A DNA stretch of 64,000 nt from Actinomycetes bacterium (GCA_022396035.1 JAIOXO010000001.1:62001-126000), one strand, 5' to 3'. Positions 25,323 to 41,169 are shown, counted from the stretch's first letter. Notes: a model not told the origin generated them from the letters alone. Numbers and translations are program-made.

Positions 25323-25391
25323 TTCTCATTCCTCCTTTTATTTGTAAATAACATTTATCTTCTAATAATCTCACCTCCCATTTGGCTTGAA

Positions 25392-26243
25392 CTATCTCCC
25401 TGCCGCCTGAATTTTTAAGCCCTGTATAAAGTATTTCTGCAGGGCCAGATACATTATTATTATGGGCAAGCTGCTTATAAGGTTACCGGTCATAACTGCC
25501 GGAACATTAGTGCCTGAATAAACCGCATTAAGCAAGGCTAGAGAGTTCATTACCGGTCTTACTGTATTGGCACTGGACAGCGCCATACCCAGTATGAGAT
25601 CATTCCAGATAAAGCTGCCCTGAAACAGGAATAATATGGCAATAGGCCCCATAGAATTGGGGAGCAGCATCCTGGTATATATCTGAAAATTGCTGCAGCC
25701 GTCAATCTTTGCCGCTTCCTGAAAATCATCGGGAAGAGTAAGGAAATAGTTCCTGAACACAAACACGCTAAACGGTATTATTATGGCCGTATATATCAAG
25801 ATCATTCCTATCTGGGTATTGTAAAGGTTTAGGGTAAGATAAGCCTTATAAAGGGGTATCAGATAAATCTGAATGGGAAAAATCATTCCGCTCCAGATTA
25901 TAATAAATATTATGAAAGATCCCTTAATTTTAAGCTTGGTAATGCCGTAGGCAGCCAGAGATGAAAAGAATATGGCGATCATACCGCTAACTACCGCATA
26001 CATAAGGCTGTTTAAAAACGGCCTTATAAGGTTGGTTTCTATCAGCACATATCTTATATTGGTAAACAGGGCAAACTTCTGGGGCATATCCCATATTTGG
26101 GATATCGCATAATCACCAGAGGTTTTAAAAGATACCAGCAGTAGAAACAGGATGGGCAACAGCCATAAAACCACCAGTGCCAGTATTATTATAAACAGCA
26201 ATCCTTTCCTGGTATTTAATTTTGCCTTATCGTTTAGTTTCAT
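25392..26243 (-). CDS. Carbohydrate ABC transporter permease (MalG type), importer 2
   Basis: 283 residues, six membrane helices, EAA loop EAAKIDGCSNFQIYTRMLLP and MalG-type end (YLALQKYFIQGLKIQAAG). Starts 13 bp after the second GH38 gene. Paralogous to the permease at 19396. Confidence 0.9.
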   Translation of the reverse strand: MKLNDKAKLNTRKGLLFIIILALVVLWLLPILFLLLVSFKTSGDYAISQIWDMPQKFALFTNIRYVLIETNLIRPFLNSLMYAVVSGMIAIFFSSLAAYGITKLKIKGSFIIFIIIWSGMIFPIQIYLIPLYKAYLTLNLYNTQIGMILIYTAIIIPFSVFVFRNYFLTLPDDFQEAAKIDGCSNFQIYTRMLLPNSMGPIAILFLFQGSFIWNDLILGMALSSANTVRPVMNSLALLNAVYSGTNVPAVMTGNLISSLPIIIMYLALQKYFIQGLKIQAAGR

Positions 26244-26256
26244 AAAATTACTCCTG

Positions 26257-29190
26257 TTATAATTTTATCCTTAAGGTGACCATTTCATGCCCTTTCATAT
26301 CCACCTTGGCCCTGCCCTTATCTACCGGACATCTTTTAATATCTTTTTCTACCGGACTGGCTGCATAACATTTTCTTATGTTTCTATCTTTTAGTTTAAG
26401 CTTTAAACCAGTGCTGCTGCCTTCTACTTCCAGCAGCCTTATTATCAGATTATCTCCGTGTTCAGATTTCTTTAATCCGGTGACCTTTATATTGCCGGGC
26501 AGTTGATCTATAAAGGCATACTCTTTTAACCCTTTCTCACTGGGCTCTGCCTTCATGAATTTGGTTTCCATGGGTGAATTGGAGGCCCAGCCAAAGTTAT
26601 GGGCAAAAGAGGGAGAAAAAGGAGACTGCTTGCTGGTAAGCCGGTAGTTGAACCAGAATCTTCCCCCCTGGCTGGCTGGCGAATTGGTCCACCAGTGGTT
26701 ATTCATGGCAAAAGAATATATATGGGCCTGTTGAAGCTGAATCTCATCCAGCCATTTGCCCGTATTGATGTCCCCCAGCTGTACCAGGGGTGCCTCTACC
26801 GGAGACCATAATATATCAATATCAGAATCACTTATGTCTATGTATTTTTGTATGCAGTACCAGTCTTTGGCAGACCCGGGAAGCTGCTGCTTTTCAGGCT
26901 GATAAAAACCACCGTGGCAATTAAGCAAAAACTCAGGGTTATCCAGCTTAAAGGGAAAGGCATAATATACCGCTTCCACATCCAGAGTTTCATGCTTTTC
27001 TAAATAATTCTTTACCACAATCCGGGGGTATAGATTATCCAGCAGAATATGGCTTTTTACTACTGGGCACATGTACGCTGAAGCCTGGGTGGTTATTTCG
27101 GTATAGACCTCTCCCGCAGCTATCTTCACTATTTTTTGCCCCTGGGGCACATAACGCTTAAACTCGGTACCCGGAGGAGGATAATCGTAATAATCTTTAT
27201 GCAGCTCTCTAAAATAGGGCTGTAAATACAGGGCTTCCCTGGAGAATTTTTCATGCTCGCTTAAGTCTACCACCCTGGGTTTTACCGTGGTCTCATAAAC
27301 CAGCTGGTTAAAACCGTACTTGCTGCCGGTATCTATCAGGTCCTTATCCAGTTTCCTGTCGTAAATCTGGGTTACCTGTCCGGTATCTTTTGCATAAGCC
27401 AAGCGGTAAAAATCATTTTCCAGTACTCCCGATCTTTCTACTTTTTCTACCGGGGCCCATTTTTCATTTGGAACCAGGTTAAACACCTTAAATCCCAGGG
27501 GAGGAACCCCCTCGGCCTTAAAAGCTATCCTGATAGACCCGGTTTGAAAGTCATGGATGGTAGGCTCCATCAGCTGTACCGGCATCTGTTTCCCTGTAAC
27601 CGAATCAATTACTTGATATCCCCTGCCTCCGCTGGTTATTTCTTTGGGGATTGCTGCTTCCACTACCTCTGACCTTTCCCAGCTTAAACTGTTTAAAACC
27701 ACTATGCTGTTTTCAGTATCCAGCCTGGCTTTCCGGGAAATTGCCTCCAGTGCGTTTTTCTTTACTTCTTCTGCTTCTATGGCCGCCTGGTACACAAATG
27801 CCGCCTCTTCAGCCCTCTGGCCCCGGGATTGATAGCTGTCCGGTTCAGCAACACTTATGTATGAGCTCCAGTCGGCTTCATCGGCTAAAAACATCTTCTT
27901 GTATATATAATCCAGTTTCTGTTGGGGATATTTTTCCAGAAGCTTCTGGGATTCCCCGATAGCTGAAAAACTTTCCCCGGTAATTATATCTGCATGGGTG
28001 TGGCGGTTTACTCCAGTCTCAAAGGCAGAAGCACCATGGTAATTAACCCACCAGTCCGGCCAGGCACCCTTGAATGTTTTTACCTGTTGCCCGTATTTTT
28101 TCTCAAACTTCTCAAAATACCTGCTGTAAGTGGATATCTTAAGCCTGGGGTATTCCCATTCCCGGTTCCAGTCCCTGACAATATAGCTTACCTTCACATT
28201 TGGTTTGGTATTATCACCGGGATAACCGGGAGCCCTCAGGGCAAGCAGGTCAAAACCAAAACCGCCCTCATTCTCAAGGTCATCCAGATACAGGGGCAAT
28301 TTCTTTAACACCGCATCATAGGAATCTGCCAGCCCAATCATTATGCCTTCCTGGTAGGCCTGCCGCTCATCGGTGTCCAGAAGCATAACTTTAGAGCCAT
28401 CCATGGCTTCCCAGTAAAAAGGCCGCGGCAACTTCAGGGCCTTGGCCAGAGTGGCATTTACTGCTGTGGAAAAGTAACGGATGCCTGCCTTGGAAAGTAT
28501 CTGCGGCAGCAGCCAGGGCTGGCCGGTAACATCACTGGCCATGGCTGTCTTTATATCCACACCGCACTGGTCAGCAAACCAGAAAGCAAAATAAAGGCTC
28601 CGGATAAGCGTTTCTTCATCATTGAATTCTGAAGTATGGGCTACATACAGGGGGTTTATTTCTATCCTGCCCTCCCGGGTAAGATCTTTTACTTTTTGAA
28701 GCGAAGGCTTGTCCAGGTTGCTTATAGCCTGTTCCAGCCAGTAACCTGTCTCTACATTCCAACGGTACTGGCTGTCTTGGTCAAAATTTTCCGTCTCCCG
28801 GCAAAATTCGATAATATTCTGCAATGACTCCTGGTAGCCTCTGGCTACCCTGCTGGGCAGGTCAGTATAACCTATGTCCGTATGGGTAAAGTTCTGCACA
28901 TGTATCTCCCATTTCCTCCTGGCCTTCAAGGTAATTTGTTGACGGTAGCTTTTGGAATCAGTCTGCAATATGGCTTCACAGGGTGTATCCTTGGCCAGGG
29001 CGGGAATATTTAAGAAAGAGCGGTTATCTGCATTATCTGGGTCAATATTGAAACTTCTGCTCCATCCGTCGGTATTCAGCTGAAGAATCGCTTTTTCCAA
29101 TTTTTTATGATCAACCTCTAAGTTGACCACCTGAACCAGTTCTCCTTTTACTTTTTTAAATAGAACCGTGGTATTAATAGTGAAATTCAA
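26257..29190 (-). CDS. GH38 glycoside hydrolase, divergent second copy
   Basis: 977 residues, no signal peptide. The catalytic domain begins near residue 95: VQNFTHTDIGYTDLP is the zinc-binding segment (HTDIG for the usual HxHxD) and ASDVTGQPWLLPQILSKAG carries the candidate aspartate nucleophile. These differ clearly from the first copy (HAHIDMNW, APDTFGHPW), so it belongs to another GH38 branch, perhaps with another linkage preference. The C-terminal beta domains are complete. Encoded 14 bp after the UxuA-like gene and just before importer 2. Confidence 0.85.
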   Translation of the reverse strand: MNFTINTTVLFKKVKGELVQVVNLEVDHKKLEKAILQLNTDGWSRSFNIDPDNADNRSFLNIPALAKDTPCEAILQTDSKSYRQQITLKARRKWEIHVQNFTHTDIGYTDLPSRVARGYQESLQNIIEFCRETENFDQDSQYRWNVETGYWLEQAISNLDKPSLQKVKDLTREGRIEINPLYVAHTSEFNDEETLIRSLYFAFWFADQCGVDIKTAMASDVTGQPWLLPQILSKAGIRYFSTAVNATLAKALKLPRPFYWEAMDGSKVMLLDTDERQAYQEGIMIGLADSYDAVLKKLPLYLDDLENEGGFGFDLLALRAPGYPGDNTKPNVKVSYIVRDWNREWEYPRLKISTYSRYFEKFEKKYGQQVKTFKGAWPDWWVNYHGASAFETGVNRHTHADIITGESFSAIGESQKLLEKYPQQKLDYIYKKMFLADEADWSSYISVAEPDSYQSRGQRAEEAAFVYQAAIEAEEVKKNALEAISRKARLDTENSIVVLNSLSWERSEVVEAAIPKEITSGGRGYQVIDSVTGKQMPVQLMEPTIHDFQTGSIRIAFKAEGVPPLGFKVFNLVPNEKWAPVEKVERSGVLENDFYRLAYAKDTGQVTQIYDRKLDKDLIDTGSKYGFNQLVYETTVKPRVVDLSEHEKFSREALYLQPYFRELHKDYYDYPPPGTEFKRYVPQGQKIVKIAAGEVYTEITTQASAYMCPVVKSHILLDNLYPRIVVKNYLEKHETLDVEAVYYAFPFKLDNPEFLLNCHGGFYQPEKQQLPGSAKDWYCIQKYIDISDSDIDILWSPVEAPLVQLGDINTGKWLDEIQLQQAHIYSFAMNNHWWTNSPASQGGRFWFNYRLTSKQSPFSPSFAHNFGWASNSPMETKFMKAEPSEKGLKEYAFIDQLPGNIKVTGLKKSEHGDNLIIRLLEVEGSSTGLKLKLKDRNIRKCYAASPVEKDIKRCPVDKGRAKVDMKGHEMVTLRIKL

Positions 29191-29204: not shown

Positions 29205-30263
29205 TTAATCAAAACTGTCAATTAATGATCTTATATATCCAACAGCATGGGCCATACCTGCATGCCAGGAACACCTGTGCGGTTTTAGTACTGGCACATG
29301 ATCCGGTATGAGCATGCCTTCAAAACCGCTTTGCCGGTAAGCCTTAAAAGCCTGTACCATATCTATGTCCCCGTCGTCGATAAATGTTTCCTCATACCGG
29401 GGGAAGCTTCCACGGATATTTCTAAAATGCACATAGGCAATCCGGTCCCCTTTACCGAAATAATCTATTAACTCAATCACCTTGGGCCCCACCCCTTCCA
29501 TTTCCGCAAAGGTTCCCTGACAGAACTGAATCCCGTGCCAGGGGCTGGGGAATTTTTCTATAAGCTGCTTAAAATCCCGGGGACAGTTCATTATCCTTTC
29601 CTCCCCGGCCAGGACCGGTGCCGGAGGGTCTGCTGGATGAATGCATAGTTTGACCCCTGCCTCCCCGGCTGCAGGTATTATCTCTTCTAACATATAGGAT
29701 AACCTCTCCCACATGGTTTTTCGGCTAATATGGCCGATAGACTGGGAAGGATTAAAATAATCAGCCTTCCAGTTTCCCCAGAACATCCCCTTTCTGGCCG
29801 GTGGGGCTTCCTTAACCAGGCTGTAATCAAAACTGGTAACATGGGCCCGGCCTCTTCCCCCTCCGCAGTTTCCTGTGCGCCAGTGTCCCCAGTAACCCAC
29901 TATGGAAAAAAAGTAGCCCAAACAATTAATCTTTGCCTTGCCCAGGTTAAAGATGGTCCTCTTAAGGTTTTCTATCTGCTCTTTTCTGCCTTTCATCCCC
30001 ATCATTATCCGGTCATAGTGTAAAGGAGGCAGATTTTCAATGGCTGCCAGCTTAAGCCCGTAGGATTCAATAAATTTCCTTAATTTAAGTAAATCATCAA
30101 ATTCCCAGAATCCATCACCCACTCCCAGAGGCATCCAGGCTATAATGCTGTCTACTCCCAGCTGCCGGGCAAAGCTCAAATTATCATGATTCAGCCTGCC
30201 CTGTTTCAGTATCCCCAATGGAAGGTTCTGGATGTGAGGATATAAATTAAGTCCTATTTCCAT
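29205..30263 (-). CDS. Mannonate dehydratase-like (UxuA family) protein
   Basis: 352 residues from the ATG at 30261-30263, which has AAGGA at good spacing; the longer frame starts at 30287 inside the previous gene. TIM-barrel protein with UxuA features: LGVDSIIAWMPLG, LKLAAIENLPPLHYD, the long insertion containing GYWGHWRTGNCGGGRGRAHVTSF, metal-binding KLCIHPADPP, CQGTFAEM, YVHFRNIRGSFPRYEETFIDDGDIDM and MLIPDHVP. UxuA removes water from D-mannonate to give 2-keto-3-deoxygluconate. It is somewhat diverged, so a related sugar acid or epimerase-type role is possible. Confidence 0.75.
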   Translation of the reverse strand: MEIGLNLYPHIQNLPLGILKQGRLNHDNLSFARQLGVDSIIAWMPLGVGDGFWEFDDLLKLRKFIESYGLKLAAIENLPPLHYDRIMMGMKGRKEQIENLKRTIFNLGKAKINCLGYFFSIVGYWGHWRTGNCGGGRGRAHVTSFDYSLVKEAPPARKGMFWGNWKADYFNPSQSIGHISRKTMWERLSYMLEEIIPAAGEAGVKLCIHPADPPAPVLAGEERIMNCPRDFKQLIEKFPSPWHGIQFCQGTFAEMEGVGPKVIELIDYFGKGDRIAYVHFRNIRGSFPRYEETFIDDGDIDMVQAFKAYRQSGFEGMLIPDHVPVLKPHRCSWHAGMAHAVGYIRSLIDSFD

Positions 30264-30264
30264 T

Positions 30265-31308
30265 TTAATTTTCCTTATTGATTGCACTCAATCCAATAGT
30301 TAAAGAGTTATGGACCTGTGAGCCCGAGGCTATGGTTATGCCCCTTCCTTCAGCCACAGTTTTATCCAGTCCCATAATATCGGTACTGAAAGGCTCCAGA
30401 CCAAACACCCTGGACATCTTATACCAGGGGTAGCCCCTGGTTTTATTAAATTCCTGCCAGTACCAGACATAAGGCATAACTTTTTTATCCCACTTCACCA
30501 TCAGCCTTATATTTTCCCGGGGATTGATTATTTCATACCGTCCCTGGTCCAGGCCGGAAAGGTACAGAAACTTGGCAGTCTGGACATTGTCCCCGGCTAT
30601 GAGCGACAGGTCCACTGTGCCCCCGTCGGTTAAGGGCAGATGGGGCCAGCTAAAAGTAGTGCCCGGCCGGATATTTTCATCCAGCGCCGACTTATGTTCA
30701 TAAACCTTGCCCTTTGCAGCCGGTATATTTATAGTGCATCCCGGCCCAAGAAAGGGCCTGCCGTAGGCCAGATGATGTCCCCAGACCACTTCCAGGTCAA
30801 CAGAACTTAAATTTACTGCTTCTTCCTCTATAAACAGCTCAGCCTGGTCCTTTACCAGCCGGAGCCGTTTTACCAGCCTTAAGGGCATCGCCCTGATTTC
30901 CGTAGACAGCTCAACCTCGATCTGTTCAGGCTCATCTCTTAGAATTCTGTAGCTCCAGGGAAGCAGGGCTGCCTCTTCATGCTGTCCCCACTCTACCCCC
31001 TGATACTGGCAGCTTCCTCCCCCATTGGGAAATATTTCCTGCCAGCCTCCCTGGTAATAATCCATGAATCTGCCTGCCGGCTGGCTCTTGGTTAAGTTAA
31101 ATCTCTGCGGGTTACTGATTCCAAAAGGAGACAGCCAAACCATATCCATATCCAGGGGCTTATAAAGGAATTCAAAAATATCCGAGCCCTTATCCAGTAG
31201 AATACCCACCCTTAAATAGCGGTTTTCCAGAAACAGGCATCTCATATCTTTGTAGGTTGCGCTGTCTTTTATTCTGCAACCATAGTTTCTTATCTTTGCT
31301 GGTTTCAT
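30265..31308 (-). CDS. Aldose 1-epimerase-like (DUF4432-type) protein
   Basis: 347 residues of the galactose-mutarotase fold: MRCLFLENRYLRVGILLDKGSDIFEFLYKPLDMDMVWLSP, WQEIFPNGGGSCQYQGVEWGQHEEAALLPW, VVWGHHLAYGRPFLGPGCTINIPA. These resemble DUF4432/aldose-epimerase-family proteins that bind sugars and may interconvert anomers. First gene of operon 2; transcription starts from the promoter at 31416-31443 and must pass the terminator-like leader at 31323-31391. Confidence 0.72.
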   Translation of the reverse strand: MKPAKIRNYGCRIKDSATYKDMRCLFLENRYLRVGILLDKGSDIFEFLYKPLDMDMVWLSPFGISNPQRFNLTKSQPAGRFMDYYQGGWQEIFPNGGGSCQYQGVEWGQHEEAALLPWSYRILRDEPEQIEVELSTEIRAMPLRLVKRLRLVKDQAELFIEEEAVNLSSVDLEVVWGHHLAYGRPFLGPGCTINIPAAKGKVYEHKSALDENIRPGTTFSWPHLPLTDGGTVDLSLIAGDNVQTAKFLYLSGLDQGRYEIINPRENIRLMVKWDKKVMPYVWYWQEFNKTRGYPWYKMSRVFGLEPFSTDIMGLDKTVAEGRGITIASGSQVHNSLTIGLSAINKEN

Positions 31309-31322
31309 ATATTTATTGGTTT

Positions 31323-31391
31323 AAAATAAATAAAAAGAGTCCAACAAAGTAAATACGATATTACTTTGTTGGACTCTTATTCTCTGCCAAC
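31323..31391 (-). promoter_or_regulatory. Leader attenuator A, candidate GlpP-type antitermination site
   Basis: In the minus-strand RNA: GTTGGC box (31386-31391), nine-base step, then AGAGTCCAACAAAGTA (31362-31377) and its perfect complement (31336-31351) with a 10-nt loop, followed by TTTTT and further T-rich sequence. This is an intrinsic terminator in the 5' leader of the epimerase gene. GTTGG of the upstream box can pair with CCAAC of the first stem arm, which would open the terminator. The same arrangement occurs at 38588-38649. It could also simply end transcripts of the upstream isomerase operon. Confidence 0.68.
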
Positions 31392-31415
31392 TATATTTAT
31401 TCTATTATGGTTTTA

Positions 31416-31443
31416 ATTATAACAATAAATAGTCTAATTTCAA
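31416..31443 (-). promoter_or_regulatory. Promoter overlapping the end of the isomerase gene
   Basis: On the minus strand TTGAAA (31438-31443), 16-bp spacer, perfect TATAAT (31416-31421). It lies across the last codons and stop of the upstream isomerase gene, so operon 2 can be transcribed separately. A start near 31409 would place the GTTGGC box about 18 nt into the transcript. Confidence 0.6.
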
Positions 31444-32850
31444 GTTTTTAGCTAAATGCACACATTCCTCCGACCAGTCCCCGTAGGTTAGGGCAAAGTG
31501 TTTACCGCAGCCAAACCTGGCAATTTGCTCAAAATATTCTTCCACTCCTATATTGTCCAGATGGATCACCGCAAAAGGTGAATGGATGTCCAGCAACTGG
31601 TAATTGATTGCTGTTCCCCTGATAATTTTAAATTTGTACCGGTCATTCATGGCCCCCAGGGTAAGCATGGTTACCTTACCCGGTTTAGCCACAAAGTTAA
31701 AGGCAAATCCTTTCCTTACTTCACCATTGGGTAAAGTGTAGGTATCATACATAAGGTTTCTTACATAAATTTCATCTTCATCTTTGGCCAGAGAAGCAGC
31801 CCCTATACCGCTATGCCCGCCCATAAGCAAGTTTTTATCTTTGTCAAATGCCCAGTTTTCCCATTGCTGGACATGGTTTTGCGAAATCCGCCCCAACAGC
31901 AGCTGGGCTAATACCAGAGACATGTCCCCTTCATCGGAACAGGCAAACTTTTCATCCAAAAGTTTGGAGATTGTATAGTAGGCCAGTACCCTGAAATCCA
32001 TAAACTCATTGCAGTTTCCCGGATCCACAGTTATGGTTAAACCGGAAAGATCTCTTTCTTCTATGAGCCTTTTTACCCCCAGATAGGTTCTGGCCTCATC
32101 ATACAGGTCAACCTGCCGGGGTTCTACTACCTTGTATTTATCCCTGATCTGTTCAACCTCCTTATTTATCTGATCCTCGCTTATAAAATTGAACTGTTTG
32201 ACCAGGTCGGAGAAGGTAAGCCAGTCCAGCCTCACTCCAAATACTTTTTCCAGTTTGGCAGCATTATCCCAGTTATCATGCATTCCCTTAAAAAACCCGG
32301 GAAGATAGGCAACATTAGCCTTCTTAATTGAATTTACAGCCCAGCTGGCTCTGGCCATCAGGTTAATTTTGCGTATAATTTTCTCTTCAGCCGGATTTCC
32401 CACCAGAAATTCATAGTCGAAGTTATCAACCATATTGGGAATGGAGGCAGTCATCTGCAGAGTACCGTTGATACCCCAGGACCGGGAAAAATCAGTAACG
32501 GTTAAATCCCCGGGAATACCTTTATACCCCTGGACCATCAGTACCAGCACCGGAACATCTTTCCTGATTTCCTTCAGGAATCCGATAATGGGCTCATCCA
32601 GGGTATAGACAAACTGACTTATAATTATCAAATCCAGATTCAATCCGGCAAACTCCCTGCCTATCTGCTGGCCATCGGATTCCGTCCTGGCGATTTTGGT
32701 AAAATGAACCTTATTTTCAACCGAAAGGCTGTCTGTCAGTTTTTTTACATCGCCCTCTACCACCTTGTCTATATCAAACATGTCAAAAGCGCTTGAATAC
32801 AACTGGTCTACAGTAATAAACAGACCAATATTGGGTTTTTGCTTATCCAT
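31417..32850 (-). CDS. L-fucose/L-arabinose isomerase family protein
   Basis: 477 residues. The fold and motifs of this family are recognisable: NLDLIIISQFVYTLDEP, VPVLVLMVQGY, CSDEGDMSLVLAQLLLGRIS (the acidic EGD metal/catalytic region), GGHSGIGAASLAKDEDEIYVRNLMYD and a C-terminal DIHSPFAVIHLDNI. Such enzymes convert an aldose to its ketose. It is followed by operon 2 and preceded by an aldolase and a kinase, giving an isomerase-kinase-aldolase set. The exact sugar cannot be read from sequence. Start ATG has AGGAGG eight bases upstream. Confidence 0.8.
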   Translation of the reverse strand: MDKQKPNIGLFITVDQLYSSAFDMFDIDKVVEGDVKKLTDSLSVENKVHFTKIARTESDGQQIGREFAGLNLDLIIISQFVYTLDEPIIGFLKEIRKDVPVLVLMVQGYKGIPGDLTVTDFSRSWGINGTLQMTASIPNMVDNFDYEFLVGNPAEEKIIRKINLMARASWAVNSIKKANVAYLPGFFKGMHDNWDNAAKLEKVFGVRLDWLTFSDLVKQFNFISEDQINKEVEQIRDKYKVVEPRQVDLYDEARTYLGVKRLIEERDLSGLTITVDPGNCNEFMDFRVLAYYTISKLLDEKFACSDEGDMSLVLAQLLLGRISQNHVQQWENWAFDKDKNLLMGGHSGIGAASLAKDEDEIYVRNLMYDTYTLPNGEVRKGFAFNFVAKPGKVTMLTLGAMNDRYKFKIIRGTAINYQLLDIHSPFAVIHLDNIGVEEYFEQIARFGCGKHFALTYGDWSEECVHLAKNLKLDYLLL

Positions 32851-32861
32851 ATGCCATCCTC

Positions 32862-33800
32862 CTAACTACGGGACTGCTTTTTATATTCTTCATAAACCCG
32901 GTCTGCTATCTTCTTTACCAGGCTGTCATTGTCTACCGGTTCATTAAAGCACACTCCATCAATGCATTTCATCTGTATATTGTCATTTACCGGGCTTCCT
33001 TCATAAACAATCTTGCATACCTCTTCCAGGCAGCCGGCCACATCTTCTGACTGGAAGATCTTCCTTCCCACAATGGTGCCGGCGGCACCAGCCTTCACCG
33101 CTTCCCTGATCATATGCAGAGTCTCCTCTATGGTTCCGGTTTTAGGACCTCCGGCTATCATGATGGGAGCAGCACAGTTTTCCACCACTTCCCGGAAGCT
33201 TTCTGCATCGTCGGTAAACTGGGATTTCACAATATCGGCACCTATTTCTGCAGCTATGCGGTCATTAACTTTTAAATAATCCTTATCATAGAAGACTTCC
33301 TTATTTTTAAAATTAGCCATAACCGGCTCAATTATTACCGGAAGCCCCACCTTTTCGCATTCTTTCACTATAAGCCCATTTTTCTTTATTTCCTCTGCCT
33401 CCATAGAGGGGTCATCAAATCCCAGGGTAAGATAGGTCATAACCCCATCAGCTCCGCACCTTATGGCATCCTCTATGGAAGTGCAAATGGTAGTCCTTAC
33501 TTCATTATAGGGGACCGAGCCCTTATAGCTTTTAGTCATGTTAATCCAGTCTATGAGGAGAATCAGGGAAGGAACACAGCGGCCCATTAAGTATTCTGCA
33601 GAATATTTAAGGTAGCCGTAGCTGATAATAACTCCGCTAGCCCTGGAATATTTAAAAATTTCCATATATTTATTTATTTCATTTATATCCTCCAGGCCGG
33701 GTATGGGCCCCTGAAGCAGGCCATGGGCATAGGGAATTATTACTCCCCTGCCAAACCTAGGGTCAATCAGCCTGCTCATGCGAATCTTTTTTCCGTACAT
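32862..33800 (-). CDS. Class I aldolase (DeoC/LacD/FbaB-like)
   Basis: About 312 residues from the ATG at 33798-33800, chosen for AAGGAGG five bases upstream; a TTG at 33818 is inferior. TIM-barrel with the features of the archaeal-type class I fructose-bisphosphate/LacD family: DGVMTYLTLG, LPVIIEPVM, GADIVKSQFTDDAESF (likely Schiff-base Lys in VKSQF) and phosphate-binding IAGGPKTGTIEE plus AGAAGTIVGRKIFQ. Expected to split a phosphorylated ketose into DHAP and an aldehyde. Sits between kinase and isomerase. Confidence 0.82.
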   Translation of the reverse strand: MYGKKIRMSRLIDPRFGRGVIIPYAHGLLQGPIPGLEDINEINKYMEIFKYSRASGVIISYGYLKYSAEYLMGRCVPSLILLIDWINMTKSYKGSVPYNEVRTTICTSIEDAIRCGADGVMTYLTLGFDDPSMEAEEIKKNGLIVKECEKVGLPVIIEPVMANFKNKEVFYDKDYLKVNDRIAAEIGADIVKSQFTDDAESFREVVENCAAPIMIAGGPKTGTIEETLHMIREAVKAGAAGTIVGRKIFQSEDVAGCLEEVCKIVYEGSPVNDNIQMKCIDGVCFNEPVDNDSLVKKIADRVYEEYKKQSRS

Positions 33801-33823
33801 AAATCCTCCTTGTGGCAAATGGT

Positions 33824-35368
33824 TTATCTTATCTGCTTAGATATATAGTTATTTATATCTTTCAATGTCCTGTACAATTTACTATACACATGCCGAAAGT
33901 AATTGTCATATTTTTTGTGTTTTTCCTCATCGGGAATATAACGGACTGCCTCCCTTTCTACCTGACGGTAGGCATGCTTAAAATCCTTATATACCCCCAC
34001 CCCGATACCGGCCACCATAGCCGCCCCCAGGGGGGTGGCTTCCTCAATGCGGGGAACTTCGATTACCTTTCCAAACACATCGGCTTTATTCTGCATCCAG
34101 AAGCTATTTTTTGTGCCCCCGCCGGTTACAATAATCTTATCACTTTCAGTTTCTGAATACCCGGCTATGGCTTTATACAGTTCCAGCGCCTTGTAATTTA
34201 AGCCTTCTACCGTAGCCCGGATAACATCCTGCCGGCTGCTCCTGCTGTTAATCCCCAGGTATGCTCCCCGGGAATAGTTGTCCTGAACCGGGCAGGTACT
34301 GCCATATATATCCGGGAGCATAAATATCCCCCCGGAACCTGGTTCCGCCTCCTGAGCCTGCTGCATCAATATATCCCATATGTTCTGTTTTTCCTTGTCT
34401 GCCATCAGCTGTTCGCTGCCTGCCAGATGGTCCTTAAACCATTCCATTACCCCTGAAGATACCATCACTCCGTAAGCCCCGTATTTGCCTTCAATTATAT
34501 GGGCCTGGCATATAATGCTCTTACCCAGACCTTCTTCTTTTAGTATGGGGCGGCTCATACACTTATGGTAATGCTCATAAGTCCCTATTACCCCCACCAG
34601 GTTATCTTCCTGGTCTCCGGCAGCAGCATAAACCCCCATCAGGCCATCCAGGCCTCCTAGTACCACCGGGGTTCCTTCCTTCAGGCCAGACTGCTCTGCA
34701 GCTTTTGCCCCCACTTCTCCTAAATAGGTTCCGCTGGGACGGGGATGGGGATATATATCCATATCCAAATTAAACATATCAAACAGCTCCGGAGACCACT
34801 CCAATTTTTCCTGATCCAGCATCAGGGTGGTGGATGCCAGCGAATAATCGGTAGCTACCTCCCCGCATAATTTGTAATTTATAAAATCTTCGATAAGCAG
34901 CCATTTGTATATTCTTTCATACAGGCGGGGCCGGTTCTGCTTGAACCATAAATTCCTGAAGATGGTATTAAGGTGCCAGGGCTTCTGGCCGTTGATTTTA
35001 TATATCTGTTTAAAATCCGCATTTTTAGAAAACCATTCCAGCTGCTCCAGGGTCCGGTTATCGTGCCAGCTTATAAACGGATACAAACAGTTGCCGTTTT
35101 TATCAATGGGTACCCCGTCACAGGCAAAACCGGTTACGGCAATGCCTTTTATAAGCCGGGGTTTCCCTATACTGCTGACCGCCTCCTTAACCGAACCGGT
35201 TACGCAGTTCCAGATATTATCCGGATCCCAGAAAGCAAAATGCCGGCCATCCTGATCTTTGTACACCACCTCAGTTTTCCTCCTGCCGCTGGCTGCCAGA
35301 TTACCGTAGTAATCATAAACCGCAGCCTTTATGCTGGTAGATCCGATATCTATAGCCATAAGGTACAT
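33824..35368 (-). CDS. FGGY-family carbohydrate kinase
   Basis: 514 residues. N-terminal MAIDIGSTSIKAAVYD is the ATP-phosphate loop; ITGFACDG-like GIAVTGFACDGVPID and SWHDNRT follow the xylulokinase/fuculokinase pattern; the second domain has GTYEHYHKCMS and VTGGGTKNSFWMQNKADVFG with PLGAAMVAGIGVG. Phosphorylates a ketose made by the isomerase; the aldolase 24 bp downstream then cleaves the product. Start ATG has AAGGAGGAG upstream. First gene of this operon, divergent from glpP across a 93-bp region with a palindrome. Confidence 0.9.
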   Translation of the reverse strand: MYLMAIDIGSTSIKAAVYDYYGNLAASGRRKTEVVYKDQDGRHFAFWDPDNIWNCVTGSVKEAVSSIGKPRLIKGIAVTGFACDGVPIDKNGNCLYPFISWHDNRTLEQLEWFSKNADFKQIYKINGQKPWHLNTIFRNLWFKQNRPRLYERIYKWLLIEDFINYKLCGEVATDYSLASTTLMLDQEKLEWSPELFDMFNLDMDIYPHPRPSGTYLGEVGAKAAEQSGLKEGTPVVLGGLDGLMGVYAAAGDQEDNLVGVIGTYEHYHKCMSRPILKEEGLGKSIICQAHIIEGKYGAYGVMVSSGVMEWFKDHLAGSEQLMADKEKQNIWDILMQQAQEAEPGSGGIFMLPDIYGSTCPVQDNYSRGAYLGINSRSSRQDVIRATVEGLNYKALELYKAIAGYSETESDKIIVTGGGTKNSFWMQNKADVFGKVIEVPRIEEATPLGAAMVAGIGVGVYKDFKHAYRQVEREAVRYIPDEEKHKKYDNYFRHVYSKLYRTLKDINNYISKQIR

Positions 35369-35401
35369 TGCTCCGGTCTCCTCCTTCCGTGGATAAAAAC
35401 T

Positions 35402-35418
35402 AAATTGAAATTCAATTT
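35402..35418. promoter_or_regulatory. Palindrome between kinase operon and glpP
   Basis: AAATTGAA-A-TTCAATTT, a perfect 8-1-8 inverted repeat. On the minus strand it follows directly after a candidate promoter (TTTACA, 16 bp, TATCAT ending at 35419), which is a repressor-like position for the kinase operon; on the plus strand it precedes a TATAAT at 35424-35429 before glpP. Probably an operator serving both directions. Confidence 0.5.
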
Positions 35419-35461
35419 TATGATATAATTTTTAAGATTTATGTAAATATACAAAATTGGT

Positions 35462-36052
35462 ATGGAAGATTTAAATCCCAGGCTATTGCTCAAAAACCTC
35501 AAGGACAACCCGGTGATACCCTGCACTAATGACTTTTCCCTTATCTCCAGTCCCCGGTTTAGTAATATTAAAATAATTTTAATGTATGACCTGGACATCA
35601 TAAACCTGTTTAAGATAGCCAAGAAGAATCTGGAGATTAAAAAGGAAATAATCCTCAATGTGGATATGATAAAGGGTATTTCCTGCGATAAAAACGGGCT
35701 TGGTTTTTTAAAACAGTACCTGCATATCAATACTATTGCATCCTCCAGTCCTAAAGTAATAAACTATGCCAAAAAACTGGGCTTTACCATTGTGCAAACC
35801 CTGTTTATGTTTGATACCAAATCCCTGGAAAAAGGGATAGAGCTAATCCAGCAGAGCAAGCCCCATTTTATAGATATCAGGCCGGGTATTTCCTACCTGA
35901 TAATTGAAAAAACACTAAAAAAAAGAATCACCAATATACCCATTATCTGTTCCGGACTTATACAGAAAGAATCAGATATCAAAAACATATTAAGCAAAAA
36001 CGCCACTGCAGTTACTACCAGCAACCAGGCCTTATGGAATCTTTATGTTTAA
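35462..36052 (+). CDS. glpP: Glycerol-3-phosphate-responsive antiterminator (GlpP family)
   Basis: 196 residues, the usual length of the family. GlpP folds as a TIM-barrel, binds glycerol 3-phosphate and, in Bacillus subtilis, binds leader RNA to let transcription pass a terminator. Matching segments: NPVIPCTNDF at the N-terminus, IILMYDLDIINL, ILNVDMIKGISCDKNGLGFLKQ, GFTIVQTLFMFDTKSLEKGIE, FIDIRPGI, IPIICSGLIQKESDIKNIL and AVTTSNQALWNLYV. It is the only plus-strand gene in a long minus-strand stretch, is close to both attenuator-like leaders (31323 and 38588), and its stop overlaps that of the convergent Fe-S gene by 4 bp. Ribosome site is weak. Confidence 0.88.
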   Translation: MEDLNPRLLLKNLKDNPVIPCTNDFSLISSPRFSNIKIILMYDLDIINLFKIAKKNLEIKKEIILNVDMIKGISCDKNGLGFLKQYLHINTIASSSPKVINYAKKLGFTIVQTLFMFDTKSLEKGIELIQQSKPHFIDIRPGISYLIIEKTLKKRITNIPIICSGLIQKESDIKNILSKNATAVTTSNQALWNLYV

Positions 36053-37143
36053 GTCTTTCCGGTTACACTGCTGCTGGCCACCTCTATAATATCTACAATC
36101 TGCAAAGGATGACTGCCATTGGCTGCCTTAAGATTGCTTAAGCACAGAGGGCAGGAAGTCACCAGAAAACCGCAGCCACTGGCCCTGCATTCATTAATTA
36201 TCTGCCCGGCCATATTCCCGGCCACCTGCTCATCCAGCAGCCGGATATAGCCTCCGCAACAGGAGGCCTGCTCTCTGTTTCTAAAAAACTCTACTCCTTC
36301 TGATCCTAGGAGTTTTTTCAGTACCGCCCTGGGCTGGTCATACAGGCCGCAGTATCTGCCCAGTTTACAGGGATCAAAATACATGTATTTAACCGGCTCA
36401 CTGGAAACAGTTTTAACCCTGTCCAGGTTATCAGCCAAAAACTGGGTATAATGGAGCACTTTTTGGCCCCATTTAAGCCCTTCCTTTTCGTATTCACAAC
36501 TGAAAGCATAATAATCTTCGGGAGCAAGGGCCACCAGCTGCTTAAAATTGTATTTCTCTATTTTTTCATAATTCTGCTTCATCAGCTTGCTGGAAAGCTC
36601 TTCTGCTCCCAGATCCCTGGCCAGCACCCCGCTGGATACCTCACTGGGGTCGTAGATATAGGAAAAACCCATGGAATCAAGAAGGCCGCCAAACTGCCGG
36701 ATAAGTTCCGGCTCAAAATTTTGGGCATACTCTCCAGCATACAGGTACACATCATACTCCCTTTCTCTGTCAGCGGGCGGGTTTCCTGGTTTCTGTCCAA
36801 AGAAATTGCCGTACTTTTCCAGGTTGTCCTTAATATCATATACCGGACGGGGGGCCACCCCCTCCTTCAGGGCGGCAGCTTTTGCAGCCCGGTTGTTTTC
36901 CATTACCTGTTTGCCATCATCCCAGCAGAACTGTTCACATCGGCGGCAATCATTGCAGAGATAAAAAGAGCGCCCGTCAGCCTGCTTTAATTCTGTAGCC
37001 TTCTTTTGAAACAGGTAAAACAGATAATTTTTATTGGTTTCCAGGATTTTATGATCCTTGGTAGCATTAAATGAAGGACAGCAAAACTTGCAAAAATTAT
37101 GGCAATATATGCACTGCCGGTTGGACCTGTCATCAAAGCTCAT
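36049..37143 (-). CDS. Fe-S oxidoreductase with CCG domains (GlcF/HdrB-like)
   Basis: 364 residues. Two N-terminal cysteine clusters, CIYCHNFCKFCCP (near 12-24) and CNDCRRCEQFC (near 63-73), can bind [4Fe-4S] centres; the C-terminal half has the CCG signatures ASCCGGYIRLL and TSCPLC plus DPCKLGRYCGLY. Such proteins pass electrons from an FAD dehydrogenase to membrane or soluble acceptors. Located 12 bp after the FAD oxidase gene, so it is its partner subunit. Confidence 0.85.
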   Translation of the reverse strand: MSFDDRSNRQCIYCHNFCKFCCPSFNATKDHKILETNKNYLFYLFQKKATELKQADGRSFYLCNDCRRCEQFCWDDGKQVMENNRAAKAAALKEGVAPRPVYDIKDNLEKYGNFFGQKPGNPPADREREYDVYLYAGEYAQNFEPELIRQFGGLLDSMGFSYIYDPSEVSSGVLARDLGAEELSSKLMKQNYEKIEKYNFKQLVALAPEDYYAFSCEYEKEGLKWGQKVLHYTQFLADNLDRVKTVSSEPVKYMYFDPCKLGRYCGLYDQPRAVLKKLLGSEGVEFFRNREQASCCGGYIRLLDEQVAGNMAGQIINECRASGCGFLVTSCPLCLSNLKAANGSHPLQIVDIIEVASSSVTGKT

Positions 37144-37155
37144 AATAATCCCCTA

Positions 37156-38556
37156 TCAAATCAGTTTACCCCTGGTAAGGATATTGTTTTTATCCACCGC
37201 ATTTTTTATATCCCTAAGCAGCCCGTATCCCGGCCCCAGCTCTTTCTTGAGCATCTTATTTTTAATCATCCCGATACCATGGTGGTGGCTGATGGATCCC
37301 CCCATCTTAAGCGTAAGCTCCATTATGTCATTCCAGATTTTATAAAACTCATCAATAGCCTGCTGCTCATCCTCCCGGTTAACATAAAATATGCTGTAGG
37401 AAGAAATGCCATGGGTATAGGCATGGGAAAAATGAGATGCTACCACAATATTTCTCTGGTTAAAATATCTCTCAATTTCATAGTAGATACCCTTTATCCT
37501 GGACCAGGAAGCAGAAATCTCTATGGCATCGGATATGCCCCCGAATTCCTCATCTTTTTCCATGATATGCCTGGTGTCAAACCTGTTTTCATACCACATC
37601 TTTCCCAGGGTATCCCCGATGTTTTTTCCCCCGTTTTTTGAACATATCTGCTCGGATACCCTGCTTTGCGCCTCCACCAGCTCCGATTTGCCTTCATAGC
37701 AGAGTACCAGCAGGCAGCCCTGATAGCTAAAACCAATATTTTCAAATTTCAGTTTTGATTCCTGACGGTTGTAAAGCCTTACTACCGGCGGAGCCAAGCC
37801 GCTCTGCAGTATATCCCTTATGGAATCCAGCCCGGCATAAATATCCTGGTACAGGTAGCACTGAAAATTCATCTTCTCCGGAAGCCGGTAAATTTTTAGA
37901 TTGGCCCTGGTAATTATGCCCAGGATTCCCTCGGAACCTATAAACATGTTCTTTATATCCGGTCCGGTGGAGCTTCTGGGGGTATCGGTAAGTTCAATTA
38001 CCTCCTGGTTGGGCAAAACCGCCTCTATGCCTACCAGGAAATCCTCTATGCCTCCGTATTTAGTGGAAAACTGACCCACTGATTTGGTAGCAATCAACCC
38101 GCCAATGGAGGCTGACCGGAAAGACTGAGGATAATGCCTGAAAGTATAGCCCCGCAGATTCAGGTAATCCTCTAAATTTTGTGCTATTACCCCTGCTTCC
38201 GTTTTAACTACCAGTGACTGGTGGTCAATACCCTGAATCCGGTCAAAATGTGACATATCGATGGTTATGCCCCCCTCTACCGGTATAATTCCGCCCACCG
38301 TGCCGGAACCGCCCCCGTATACATTTACCGGTATTTTTTCCTGGTTGGCGATTCTTAAAATGCTTTTCAGATGCTCCATGTTTTGGGGAAATAAAGCTAC
38401 TTCAGCACTTGCCGGCGGCTGACCGTACAGGTCTATCCATTTGTAGCAAATAGGGGTAACATCCCTGGACAGGGTAAACAGATCATTGGGATTGGTGGTG
38501 ATATTCTGGCTGCCTATTTCTTTGCCCAGCCTCTCCATAATGCTTTCACTAATCAT
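37156..38556 (-). CDS. FAD-binding oxidoreductase (GlcD/alkyl-DHAP synthase-like)
   Basis: About 466 residues from the ATG at 38554-38556; the longer frame would start inside the terminator hairpin and is rejected. The FAD_binding_4 domain shows VYGGGSGTVGGIIPVEGGITIDMSHF and FRSASIGGLIATKSVGQFSTKYGGIEDF; the C-terminal domain ends GGSISHHHGIGMIKN, a signature of the 2-hydroxyacid dehydrogenase/alkyl-DHAP synthase group. With the CCG partner it should oxidise a hydroxy-acid or, given GlpP control, possibly glycerol 3-phosphate. The substrate is inferred only. Confidence 0.82.
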   Translation of the reverse strand: MISESIMERLGKEIGSQNITTNPNDLFTLSRDVTPICYKWIDLYGQPPASAEVALFPQNMEHLKSILRIANQEKIPVNVYGGGSGTVGGIIPVEGGITIDMSHFDRIQGIDHQSLVVKTEAGVIAQNLEDYLNLRGYTFRHYPQSFRSASIGGLIATKSVGQFSTKYGGIEDFLVGIEAVLPNQEVIELTDTPRSSTGPDIKNMFIGSEGILGIITRANLKIYRLPEKMNFQCYLYQDIYAGLDSIRDILQSGLAPPVVRLYNRQESKLKFENIGFSYQGCLLVLCYEGKSELVEAQSRVSEQICSKNGGKNIGDTLGKMWYENRFDTRHIMEKDEEFGGISDAIEISASWSRIKGIYYEIERYFNQRNIVVASHFSHAYTHGISSYSIFYVNREDEQQAIDEFYKIWNDIMELTLKMGGSISHHHGIGMIKNKMLKKELGPGYGLLRDIKNAVDKNNILTRGKLI

Positions 38557-38587
38557 TGCCGTCTCTTCTTCTAAACTTTCATAAAGC

Positions 38588-38649
38588 AAAAAGAGTCCAA
38601 CAAAATACACACAGCAATGTACTTTGTTGGACTCTGTTTCTCAGCCAAC
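38588..38649 (-). promoter_or_regulatory. Leader attenuator B, second copy of the GlpP-type candidate
   Basis: Minus-strand RNA: GTTGGC (38644-38649), the same nine-base step as copy A, arm AGAGTCCAACAAAGTA (38620-38635), 12-nt loop, complementary arm (38592-38607) with one G-U pair, then TTTTT. It lies between its own consensus promoter and the FAD oxidase start, with no co-directional gene upstream, so it is not there to end another transcript. The loop differs from copy A while both stems and the GTTGGC box are kept. Confidence 0.72.
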
Positions 38650-39002: not shown

Positions 39003-39647
39003 ATGTCTGAAATTATCAACGAACTAAAAGAGGCCATCTTTGCCTTCAACGGAAAGCTTTCCCGGCAATTGGCCGCCGAGGCATTAGAAGGAGGCAAACA
39101 GCCCGAAGAAATTTTGGAGGGAATGACTGAAGCCATCAGAAAGATTGGAGATGGGTTTGAAAGCGGAGAACTGTTTCTCCCGGAATTAGTGGGAGCAGCC
39201 AGTGCCATGTCAGAGGCCATTTCGGTAGTAGAAGAGAACCTGGAAAAGACCGGAAAGAAGGTAGAAAAGACCAGCACCATAGTGCTGGGCACAGTTAAAG
39301 GTGATATCCATGATATAGGAAAGACCATGGTAAAAGCATTTCTGGTAGCCGAGAATTTTAGAGTAATTGATCTGGGTGTAGATGTGGCTCCCGAGGAATT
39401 TTTGGAAGCAATAGAAAAGTACGATCCTGAAATCCTGGCCCTTTCTGCCCTTTTAACTACCACCGTAGCAGAACAGAGAAAAATAATTGAAATCCTCAAA
39501 GAAAAAGGAATGAGAGACAGGGTGAAAGTGATAATAGGAGGAGCTGCTACCAACCAGGAATTTGCCGATGAAATAGGCGCAGACGGCTATGAAACTACTG
39601 CCCCCAGGGCACCCAGGTTATGCAAAAGTTTACTAGGAAAGGAGTGA
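39003..39647 (+). CDS. Corrinoid protein (MttC/MtbC type)
   Basis: 214 residues. The N-terminal helical cap (about 1-85, B12-binding_2) is followed by a Rossmann-like B12 domain with VLGTVKGDIHDIGKTMV near residue 93-109; His in D-x-H-x-x-G is the lower ligand of cobalt. LSALLTTTV and VIIGGAATNQEFADEIGADGY complete the signature. It accepts a methyl group from the MttB-family enzyme encoded 8 bp downstream and passes it on to a second methyltransferase. No reactivating ATPase (RamA) is present in the window. Confidence 0.93.
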   Translation: MSEIINELKEAIFAFNGKLSRQLAAEALEGGKQPEEILEGMTEAIRKIGDGFESGELFLPELVGAASAMSEAISVVEENLEKTGKKVEKTSTIVLGTVKGDIHDIGKTMVKAFLVAENFRVIDLGVDVAPEEFLEAIEKYDPEILALSALLTTTVAEQRKIIEILKEKGMRDRVKVIIGGAATNQEFADEIGADGYETTAPRAPRLCKSLLGKE

Positions 39648-39654
39648 AGCCGGT

Positions 39655-41169
39655 ATGGCATATGAAAAAGGAATTAAACGGAATATACGCCCCCTGGAGA
39701 TTTTAAACCAGGAACAGATAGAGGTAATCCATAAAAAAACCCTGGAAGTTCTGCAGAACACAGGGGTAAGGTTTGAAAGCAAAAGAGCCTTGAAACTTTT
39801 TAAACATAACGGCTGCCAGGTTGATGAGGACAAAAAGCTGGTAAAATTCCCTACATGGCTGGTAGAGGATTGCCTGCATAAATGCCCCAGCAACTTCCAG
39901 GTCAAAGGCCGGGGATCCGGCCAGGGATTTAATTTCGGAGGCAATACCACCCATTTCCTGCCTTTCCCGGGCAAAGATACCATTGATCTGGAAACCTGGG
40001 AACCCAGACCTCCCACCAGGAAAGAATTTTACGATGTGGTCAAAGTAATGGATGCGCTGGAGACGGTTCACTATACAGGATCCTATGTGCCCTGGTTTGG
40101 CTTTAAGAATACTCCTGCAGTTATGCAGATGCTGGAAGGAGACGCTGCCAATTTCAGGAATAGCACCATGCCCCTTCACTGCAATTATGGTAATGACTGC
40201 GAAATATTTGCCATAGAAATGGCCAAAGCCCTGGGTGCCATTAATCTGGGTGTAGTGGCCATATCGCCCCCTCTAACCTATCAGGAAGATGCCTGTATTT
40301 CCGCCTTCAGGAATGTTGAGGCTGGATTTCCCCTGTATATACAGAGCGGCGCCACCTATGGCTCAACCTCACCGGTTACTGCCGCCGGAGCTACAGTAAC
40401 CAATAATGCTGAATTAATGGCCGGAGTAGTCCTGGCCCAGCTTATAAAGCCGGGAACCGGGGTTCTGGTAAGCGATTTTGGTTTCTCCCAGAACATGCGC
40501 TCGGGCTATCCGGTTTTCGGGAGAATAGAAAGCTCCCTGCATCAGGTGGTATTTAACCAGATCTGGCGAAGATACAACATACCAATAGGCAACCACTCTA
40601 CAGGAACCTCCAATTCCAAAAGGATAGATTACCAGTGCGGTTACGAGAAAACAACCTCCTGCTGGCTGTCCCTGTTATCCGGAGCAAATGAAATAGGTTT
40701 TCATGGCTGTATATACGGGGAGCTGTCATTCCACCCTGCCCAGTTAATCCTGGATGACGATGTTGCAGCAATGATTGGCCGTTTCCTGGAGGGCATCCAG
40801 ATAAACGATGAAACCCTGGCCATAGATGTCATCAATGAGGTGGGCCCCATTCCCGGCACCTATCTTACCCAGGAACATACCAGGAAGTGGTGGAAAAAAG
40901 AACAGTTTATCCCCCAGAGCGCCGACAATCTGACCTATATGGAATGGATGGAAGCAGACAAAAAAGACTGTATCCAGTATGCAATGGAACGGATGGAAAA
41001 AATAGTGGAAACTTACAAACCGGAGCCTCTGCCGGATAAGGAGGAAGAGGCCATAGAGAATATAATGAAAGAAGCCCGAAAGCATTACCGTAAAACCGGG
41101 CTGATATCGGATAAGGAATGGGAGGTCTATAAAAAAGACCTGACCTCTCCGGGGTATCCCTATTATTAA
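39655..41169 (+). CDS. MttB-family (trimethylamine methyltransferase-like) methyltransferase, non-pyrrolysine
   Basis: 504 residues read straight through with no in-frame TAG, so it is a non-pyrrolysine member like the glycine betaine, proline betaine or carnitine demethylases MtgB, MtpB and MtcB. Family features: RNIRPLEILNQEQIEVIHKKTLEVLQNTGVRF at the N-terminus, INLGVVAISPPLTY, YGSTSPVTAAGATVTNNAELMAGVVLAQL, and GYEKTTSCWLSLLSGANEIGFHG. It should move a methyl group from a methylated substrate to the corrinoid protein upstream. Substrate unknown; control by the same operator as a mannoside operon is unusual. Confidence 0.9.
   Translation: MAYEKGIKRNIRPLEILNQEQIEVIHKKTLEVLQNTGVRFESKRALKLFKHNGCQVDEDKKLVKFPTWLVEDCLHKCPSNFQVKGRGSGQGFNFGGNTTHFLPFPGKDTIDLETWEPRPPTRKEFYDVVKVMDALETVHYTGSYVPWFGFKNTPAVMQMLEGDAANFRNSTMPLHCNYGNDCEIFAIEMAKALGAINLGVVAISPPLTYQEDACISAFRNVEAGFPLYIQSGATYGSTSPVTAAGATVTNNAELMAGVVLAQLIKPGTGVLVSDFGFSQNMRSGYPVFGRIESSLHQVVFNQIWRRYNIPIGNHSTGTSNSKRIDYQCGYEKTTSCWLSLLSGANEIGFHGCIYGELSFHPAQLILDDDVAAMIGRFLEGIQINDETLAIDVINEVGPIPGTYLTQEHTRKWWKKEQFIPQSADNLTYMEWMEADKKDCIQYAMERMEKIVETYKPEPLPDKEEEAIENIMKEARKHYRKTGLISDKEWEVYKKDLTSPGYPYY

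Follow-up and report, generated by a model that had tools for sequence, protein, structure and literature searches.

In Bacillus subtilis, the leaders of glpD, glpFK, and glpTQ contain a terminator and a target for GlpP, and activated GlpP disrupts the terminator (PMC9604022, PMC7430163). We analyzed a 64,000-nucleotide stretch of DNA (the window) from a member of the Humimicrobiaceae (Actinomycetota), the family of Candidatus Humimicrobium. It carries a gene for a GlpP-type antiterminator (PF04309, E value 1.6e-41; positions 35462–36052, plus strand) between two leaders on the minus strand, here termed L1 and L2, as a sequence-only reading of this DNA had claimed. Judging from sequence comparisons, we consider it highly probable that these leaders are the cis-acting targets of the protein encoded between them, that a phosphorylated metabolite would lead to read-through, and that the effector has probably been re-specified.

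Two leaders and their operons

The glpP-type gene lies inside a row of minus-strand genes and antisense to it. Behind L2 follow a FAD-dependent GlcD/AGPS-type dehydrogenase (37156–38556), a GlpC/TfrB-like Fe-S/CCG-domain partner protein (36049–37143) and, on the other side of glpP, an FGGY carbohydrate kinase (33824–35368; nearest solved structure, autoinducer-2 kinase), a DhnA/LsrF-type class I aldolase (32862–33818; nearest to MJ0400/LsrF), and an AraA/sulfoquinovose-isomerase-like sugar isomerase (31417–32850) far below the equivalog cut-off, all on the minus strand. The listed start of the dehydrogenase gene (38610) falls within the L2 terminator, and the next in-frame ATG is found near 38556. 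Sulfoquinovose degradation is not claimed, since the isomerase reached 90.9 bits where the cut-off is 700. The first gene behind L1 encodes a DUF4432 protein (PF14486; 30265–31308, minus strand), which we take to be aldose-epimerase-like. It is followed on the same strand by genes for a UxuA-like/xylose-isomerase-like TIM barrel protein (29205–30287), a GH38 glycosidase (26257–29190), and, based on sequence features, a putative ABC sugar importer (23940–26243; permease, 25392–26243; substrate-binding protein, 23940–25322). In relatives, a leader is located immediately ahead of the GH38 gene. The "complex-sugar uptake" suggested by the sequence-only reading is a fair guess from the GH38 and ABC genes.

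In the window and six relatives (L022–L027), glpP separates the CCG and FGGY kinase genes and points in the opposite direction. Read-through at L2 would run antisense to glpP, a possible feedback. The sequence ATTATAnCATAAT (window 35420–35447) is invariant in the divergent gap between glpP and the kinase gene of all seven genomes, in a promoter-like, partly invariant region, and can be read as overlapping divergent −10 boxes. Because the kinase, aldolase, and isomerase genes are preceded by their own promoter-like region next to glpP, L2 may control them only via read-through across glpP.

Both leaders share the box AGTTGGC, a spacer of 8 nt, and an identical 5' terminator arm, AGAGTCCAACAAAGTA; their loops and flanks differ. 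In L1, the box (31392–31386) is followed by the terminator stem (31378–31335) and the T run; the corresponding positions in L2 are 38650–38644 and 38635–38592, again with the T run next. The equal distance and the shared arm had been recognized correctly before, but the spacing is 8 and not 9 nt: a pattern with N9 had no true match in the window, whereas the N8 pattern found both sites. AGTTGGC-N8-AGAGTCCAACAAAGTA followed by a terminator occurs exactly twice without mismatch in the 1.6-Mb, 98%-complete genome (control pattern, no site), both times at an operon start. The possibility that the hairpin belongs to a scattered repeat family, which would have refuted the initial proposal, was thus checked and did not materialize.

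The terminators including their T runs (L1, 31330–31378, −25.3 kcal/mol; L2, 38588–38635, −27.6 kcal/mol; minus strand) are far more stable than shuffled sequences, with z scores of −7.7 and −5.4, respectively. In both leaders, the GTTGG of the box recurs in the 3' arm, which agrees with the antiterminator geometry described in the sequence-only reading. The box can therefore pair with the 5' arm in a predicted hairpin, GTTGG-CAGAGAATAAGAGT-CCAAC in L1 (31368–31391; −3.0 kcal/mol alone) and GTTGG-CTGAGAAACAGAGT-CCAAC in L2 (38626–38649; −5.3 kcal/mol alone). The promoters postulated for the two leaders have their counterparts at the expected places. A promoter-like sequence of the sigma-70/A type, TTGAAA-N16-TATAAT, precedes L1 (31416–31443, minus strand), where it overlaps the end of the upstream gene, and its hexamers are repeated in the congeneric genome G002. 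TTGACA-N17-TATAAA precedes L2 (38667–38695, minus strand). Both leaders of the window hence have the layout of GlpP-controlled leaders, with a promoter, a short leader, and an intrinsic terminator ahead of a gene. Moreover, the sequence 5' of the terminator can pair with the 5' arm around the same GAGA-N4-GAG loop that is found at other GlpP loci.

Occurrence of the element in the Humimicrobiaceae and beyond

Our analysis of the family covered 35 genomes, seven of which contain a PF04309 gene scoring above the cut-off (partly masked in G023). The leader motif GTTGGYNGAGAN3AGARTCCAAY (GTTGGYNGAGANNNAGARTCCAAY) has 12 zero-mismatch sites, which are distributed over exactly these seven genomes; the remaining 28 have none. 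The probability of such co-occurrence by chance is 1.5e-7, and the reversed motif had no site in the 35 genomes. A search of 297 genomes from the phylum found no zero-mismatch site outside the glpP-bearing Humimicrobiaceae. All 12 leaders are located at operon starts, ahead of catabolic operons that begin with genes for a GlcD/AGPS-type oxidase (six cases), GH38 (three), DUF4432 (two), or a corrinoid protein with an MttB-family methyltransferase (one). Twelve sites followed by such genes argue for a true regulon and not a repeat, and these non-glycerol operons support the initial claim that the regulon reaches beyond glycerol genes. It seems that a control device familiar from glycerol utilization has been redirected to other sugar-like compounds. 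The corrinoid/MttB case was found in the relative G027 (L105:8638–10956); the homologous pair in the window (39003–41169, plus strand) adjoins L2 and has no leader of its own.

When the 12 leaders are aligned, there is essentially no variation in the box, GAGA, AGAR, and TCCAAY, whereas the 3' arm has diverged to GTTAG, TATGG, TGTGG, or GTCGG. Pairwise identity amounts to 100% in the GTTGG box, 93% in the 5' arm, and 73% in the 3' arm. If only a terminator were needed, both arms would be under equal constraint, but the half conserved here is the one that forms the GTTGG...CCAAC hairpin.

For other lineages, an alignment-based scan provided 63 GlpP loci, 59 of them outside the Humimicrobiaceae; the single GlpP of the window as query gave none. 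A first X-X'-X scan of such DNA returned mostly chance matches, and its best match in the Bacillales (L061:11482) has features of a SAM riboswitch, lies ahead of a metQ-like gene, and is not a GlpP leader. Since control tetramers revealed a loose scan to be noisy (GCGC, 25 matches; AGAG, 17 matches), the scans were made stricter and checked against Markov and permutation controls. Unrelated GlpP loci share one hairpin plan: a stem of about 5 bp encloses GAGA-N4-GAG, and its stem' strand is re-used by the terminator. Searching for the 5-bp stem, GAGA..GAG, and a terminator identified 17 sites in 784 kb around 59 GlpP genes, compared to 0–1 in each of 15 Markov-randomized copies. With few exceptions, these sites are no more than a few hundred bases away from glpP. 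Beside glpP, GAGA and GAG are four bases apart at 21 sites, and every other spacing occurs at most six times.

The stems themselves vary (GTTGG/CCAAC, GTTCCA/TGGAGC, GTGCT/AGCAC, GGTCT/AGACC, CTACC/GGTAG, TGCGC/GCGCA, GGTTGCT/AGCGACC). Because they are out of register in a MAFFT alignment, covariation was tested by flank permutation, without a covariance model. The flanks of 26 de-duplicated sites, for which no stem had been required, pair in cis with a score of 11.2 compared to 8.3 after permutation, and none of 5000 permutations was as good. The expected covariation of stem and box thus holds across phyla but not within the Humimicrobiaceae, where none was detected beyond one C-to-U wobble because the box is invariant. 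A number of the sites obtained without the stem filter fall in coding sequence and are chance matches. With a stricter GAGA-N4/5-GAG filter, 32 of the 59 distant GlpP loci had no site; their leaders may vary or fall beyond the scanned flanks. Similarly, no clear element was seen in the flanking DNA scanned at the GlpP loci of Klebsiella, Enterococcus, Peptoclostridium, and Listeria.

The element precedes authentic glpD genes (with a DAO_C domain) in Alkalicoccus and Paenibacillus, both glpD and glpF in Cytobacillus, glpF in Acetoanaerobium, and glpP itself in Paenibacillus. As the same hairpin plan occurs at other GlpP loci, including those of glpD and glpF, the leaders of the window appear to be a family-specific form of a general GlpP target. 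Taken together, the perfect co-occurrence over 35 genomes and the common plan with covarying stems across phyla speak for the dependence on a GlpP-type protein that had been suggested for the locus. In several Clostridia/Eubacteriales (L045, L047, L052, L062), the element lies ahead of a gene for an Ldh_2 malate/L-lactate dehydrogenase on the minus strand, divergent from glpP, which is a non-glycerol target.

The GlpP protein, its signal, and alternative readings

The predicted model of the window GlpP (pLDDT 93.6) matches Listeria GlpP (3kts) best in the PDB, followed by 1vkf, and both fold and sequence place it in the family. Arg113 (QRxF) and Glu138 (EILPG) are present in all 79 other GlpPs; in all six complete GlpPs of the Humimicrobiaceae, they are replaced by Thr, Ser, or Leu and by Asp, respectively. 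The latter proteins additionally carry Arg instead of Leu140 (Leu or Met elsewhere), Ser instead of Gly164, and changes at Leu42 and Gly91. The states at positions 113, 138, 140, and 164 are kept in 76–79 of the 79 other proteins. In the predicted model, the changed positions are found on or just after barrel strands. (βα)8 proteins bind ligands at the ends of the barrel strands, and by this geometry the changed residues may contact the effector. Sequence and model suggest that the effector of the Humimicrobiaceae GlpP has changed from glycerol 3-phosphate, which is doubtful as a signal in this family because pocket positions invariant elsewhere are altered. Reasonable candidates would be a ketose phosphate or a three-carbon phosphate produced by the aldolase.

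An ordinary GlpP system still sensing glycerol 3-phosphate has a tangible, if clearly less than even, chance of being the right explanation. The GlcD/AGPS-like oxidase and the CCG protein would then form a non-standard glycerol-3-phosphate dehydrogenase, and since this pair would stand in for GlpD, glycerol 3-phosphate would stay the natural signal. The closest PDB entry to the oxidase is indeed alkyldihydroxyacetonephosphate synthase, an enzyme handling a DHAP ester; its CCG partner scores weakly to GlpC, and the strand-7/8 loops of GlpP, typical of phosphate binding, are largely kept. The seven glpP genomes lack GlpD (PF16901), as well as GlpF (PF00230), in searches that were positive in control genomes, and most of them have a glycerol kinase (above the curated cut-off in three, just below it in two). 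However, this kinase comes without a leader: the element was not found at the glycerol kinase loci of glpP-bearing genomes, and the control of glpF, glpK, and glpD that defines the glycerol regulon of GlpP is not seen in any of the seven. This explanation also has to account for the replacement, in six of six complete family members, of an Arg and a Glu that even distant GlpPs retain.

Two further explanations do without GlpP. A riboswitch or another protein-dependent attenuator located near glpP by chance would produce similar-looking leaders, but it is very improbable given that the leaders and glpP occur together without exception in the 35 genomes, that GlpP loci of other phyla show the same hairpin, and that the leaders match no Rfam family (an Rfam 15 scan of the window returned only tRNAs over the gathering score). 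We give marginally less credit still to the view that the leaders are plain terminators or two copies of a dispersed repeat and regulate nothing. Both terminators are strong, and L1, directly behind the isomerase stop codon, could end the isomerase transcript. Yet box and loop are conserved beyond the needs of a terminator, and a repeat is difficult to reconcile with only two copies in the genome and 12 in seven genomes, where every copy is accompanied by the box, the spacer, and a catabolic operon.

We therefore favor antitermination by the GlpP-type protein, a model well supported by the comparative evidence, from which we infer GlpP binding, read-through, and the direction of control. If no active GlpP is present, the 5' arm (AGAGTCCAAC...) would pair with the 3' arm, and transcription would end at the T run. 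GlpP activated by a phosphorylated metabolite would bind the weak hairpin that the box (GTTGG) and the 5' arm (CCAAC) form upstream, with GAGA-N4-GAG as its purine loop, and would stabilize it. The 5' arm would thereby be hidden, allowing RNA polymerase to read through. With −3 to −5 kcal/mol for this hairpin against −25 to −28 kcal/mol for the terminator, a protein would have to stabilize it. The effector pocket would have been re-specified in the Humimicrobiaceae, and the signal is probably another phosphorylated intermediate of the encoded pathway instead of glycerol 3-phosphate.

The E. coli ygcP cluster and other known systems

In E. coli K-12 MG1655, the gap between ygcW and yqcE (L157:10320–10570; NC_000913.3, about 2900319–2900569) contains two divergent elements, each with a terminator: AGTTACC-A-GAGATAATGAG-AAA-GGTAACT ahead of ygcW and AATTACT-A-GAGACCTGAG-AAA-AGTAATC ahead of yqcE-ygcE. 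Of 5426 E. coli genomes, 5038 contain the region on the ygcW side. The twin arrangement recurs in Enterobacillus, where T:A takes the place of a C:G pair of the stem. These sequences predict that both operons flanking the gap are under antitermination control; no publications on YgcP control were found in our literature search. At a clostridial GlpP locus (L082:5274–11342), the element occurs together with genes for two BCCT-like transporters, an SDR, and an FGGY kinase, a set resembling the E. coli ygc module.

We see a slightly better than even chance that the following picture holds as a whole: the widespread GAGA-N4-GAG antiterminator hairpin would be the common target of the GlpP family from Bacillota to E. 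coli, regulon and effector would have changed in the Humimicrobiaceae toward a non-glycerol phosphorylated metabolite, and E. coli K-12 would possess an unrecognized twin-leader YgcP system. With a portable consensus, GlpP regulons can be located in any genome. The consensus predicts that GlpP-family proteins have been recruited to several kinds of catabolic module (FGGY kinase, FAD dehydrogenase, SDR, transporter) and offers a directly testable prediction for an E. coli K-12 cluster of unknown function. In the window, it joins a number of unassigned genes, among them those for GH38 and the GlcD/AGPS-like oxidase, in a single regulon, which in a relative includes a corrinoid methyltransferase.

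The E. coli cluster (ygcW-ygcU-ygcS-ygcR-ygcQ, yqcE-ygcE) resembles the window in having a GlpP-family gene beside those for a FAD dehydrogenase (YgcU) and an FGGY kinase (YgcE), and in its two leaders of one hairpin plan, which are divergent in E. coli. In contrast to the window, it encodes an SDR, an MFS protein, and electron-transfer flavoproteins, and YgcP retains the invariant Arg and Glu. With the B. subtilis GlpP system, whose leaders were compared by their published description, the window shares a PF04309 protein and leaders with a terminator, and the glpD/glpF leaders of other Bacillales (Alkalicoccus, Cytobacillus, Paenibacillus) follow the same hairpin plan; the window differs in its operons, the lack of GlpD and GlpF in the genome, and the altered pocket residues. 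Antiterminators of the BglG/SacY/LicT type stabilize a RAT hairpin that overlaps the 5' arm of the terminator. A protein-stabilized hairpin over the 5' terminator arm is also what we propose for the window, but these proteins have an unrelated fold, contain PRD domains that GlpP lacks, and recognize another RNA sequence.
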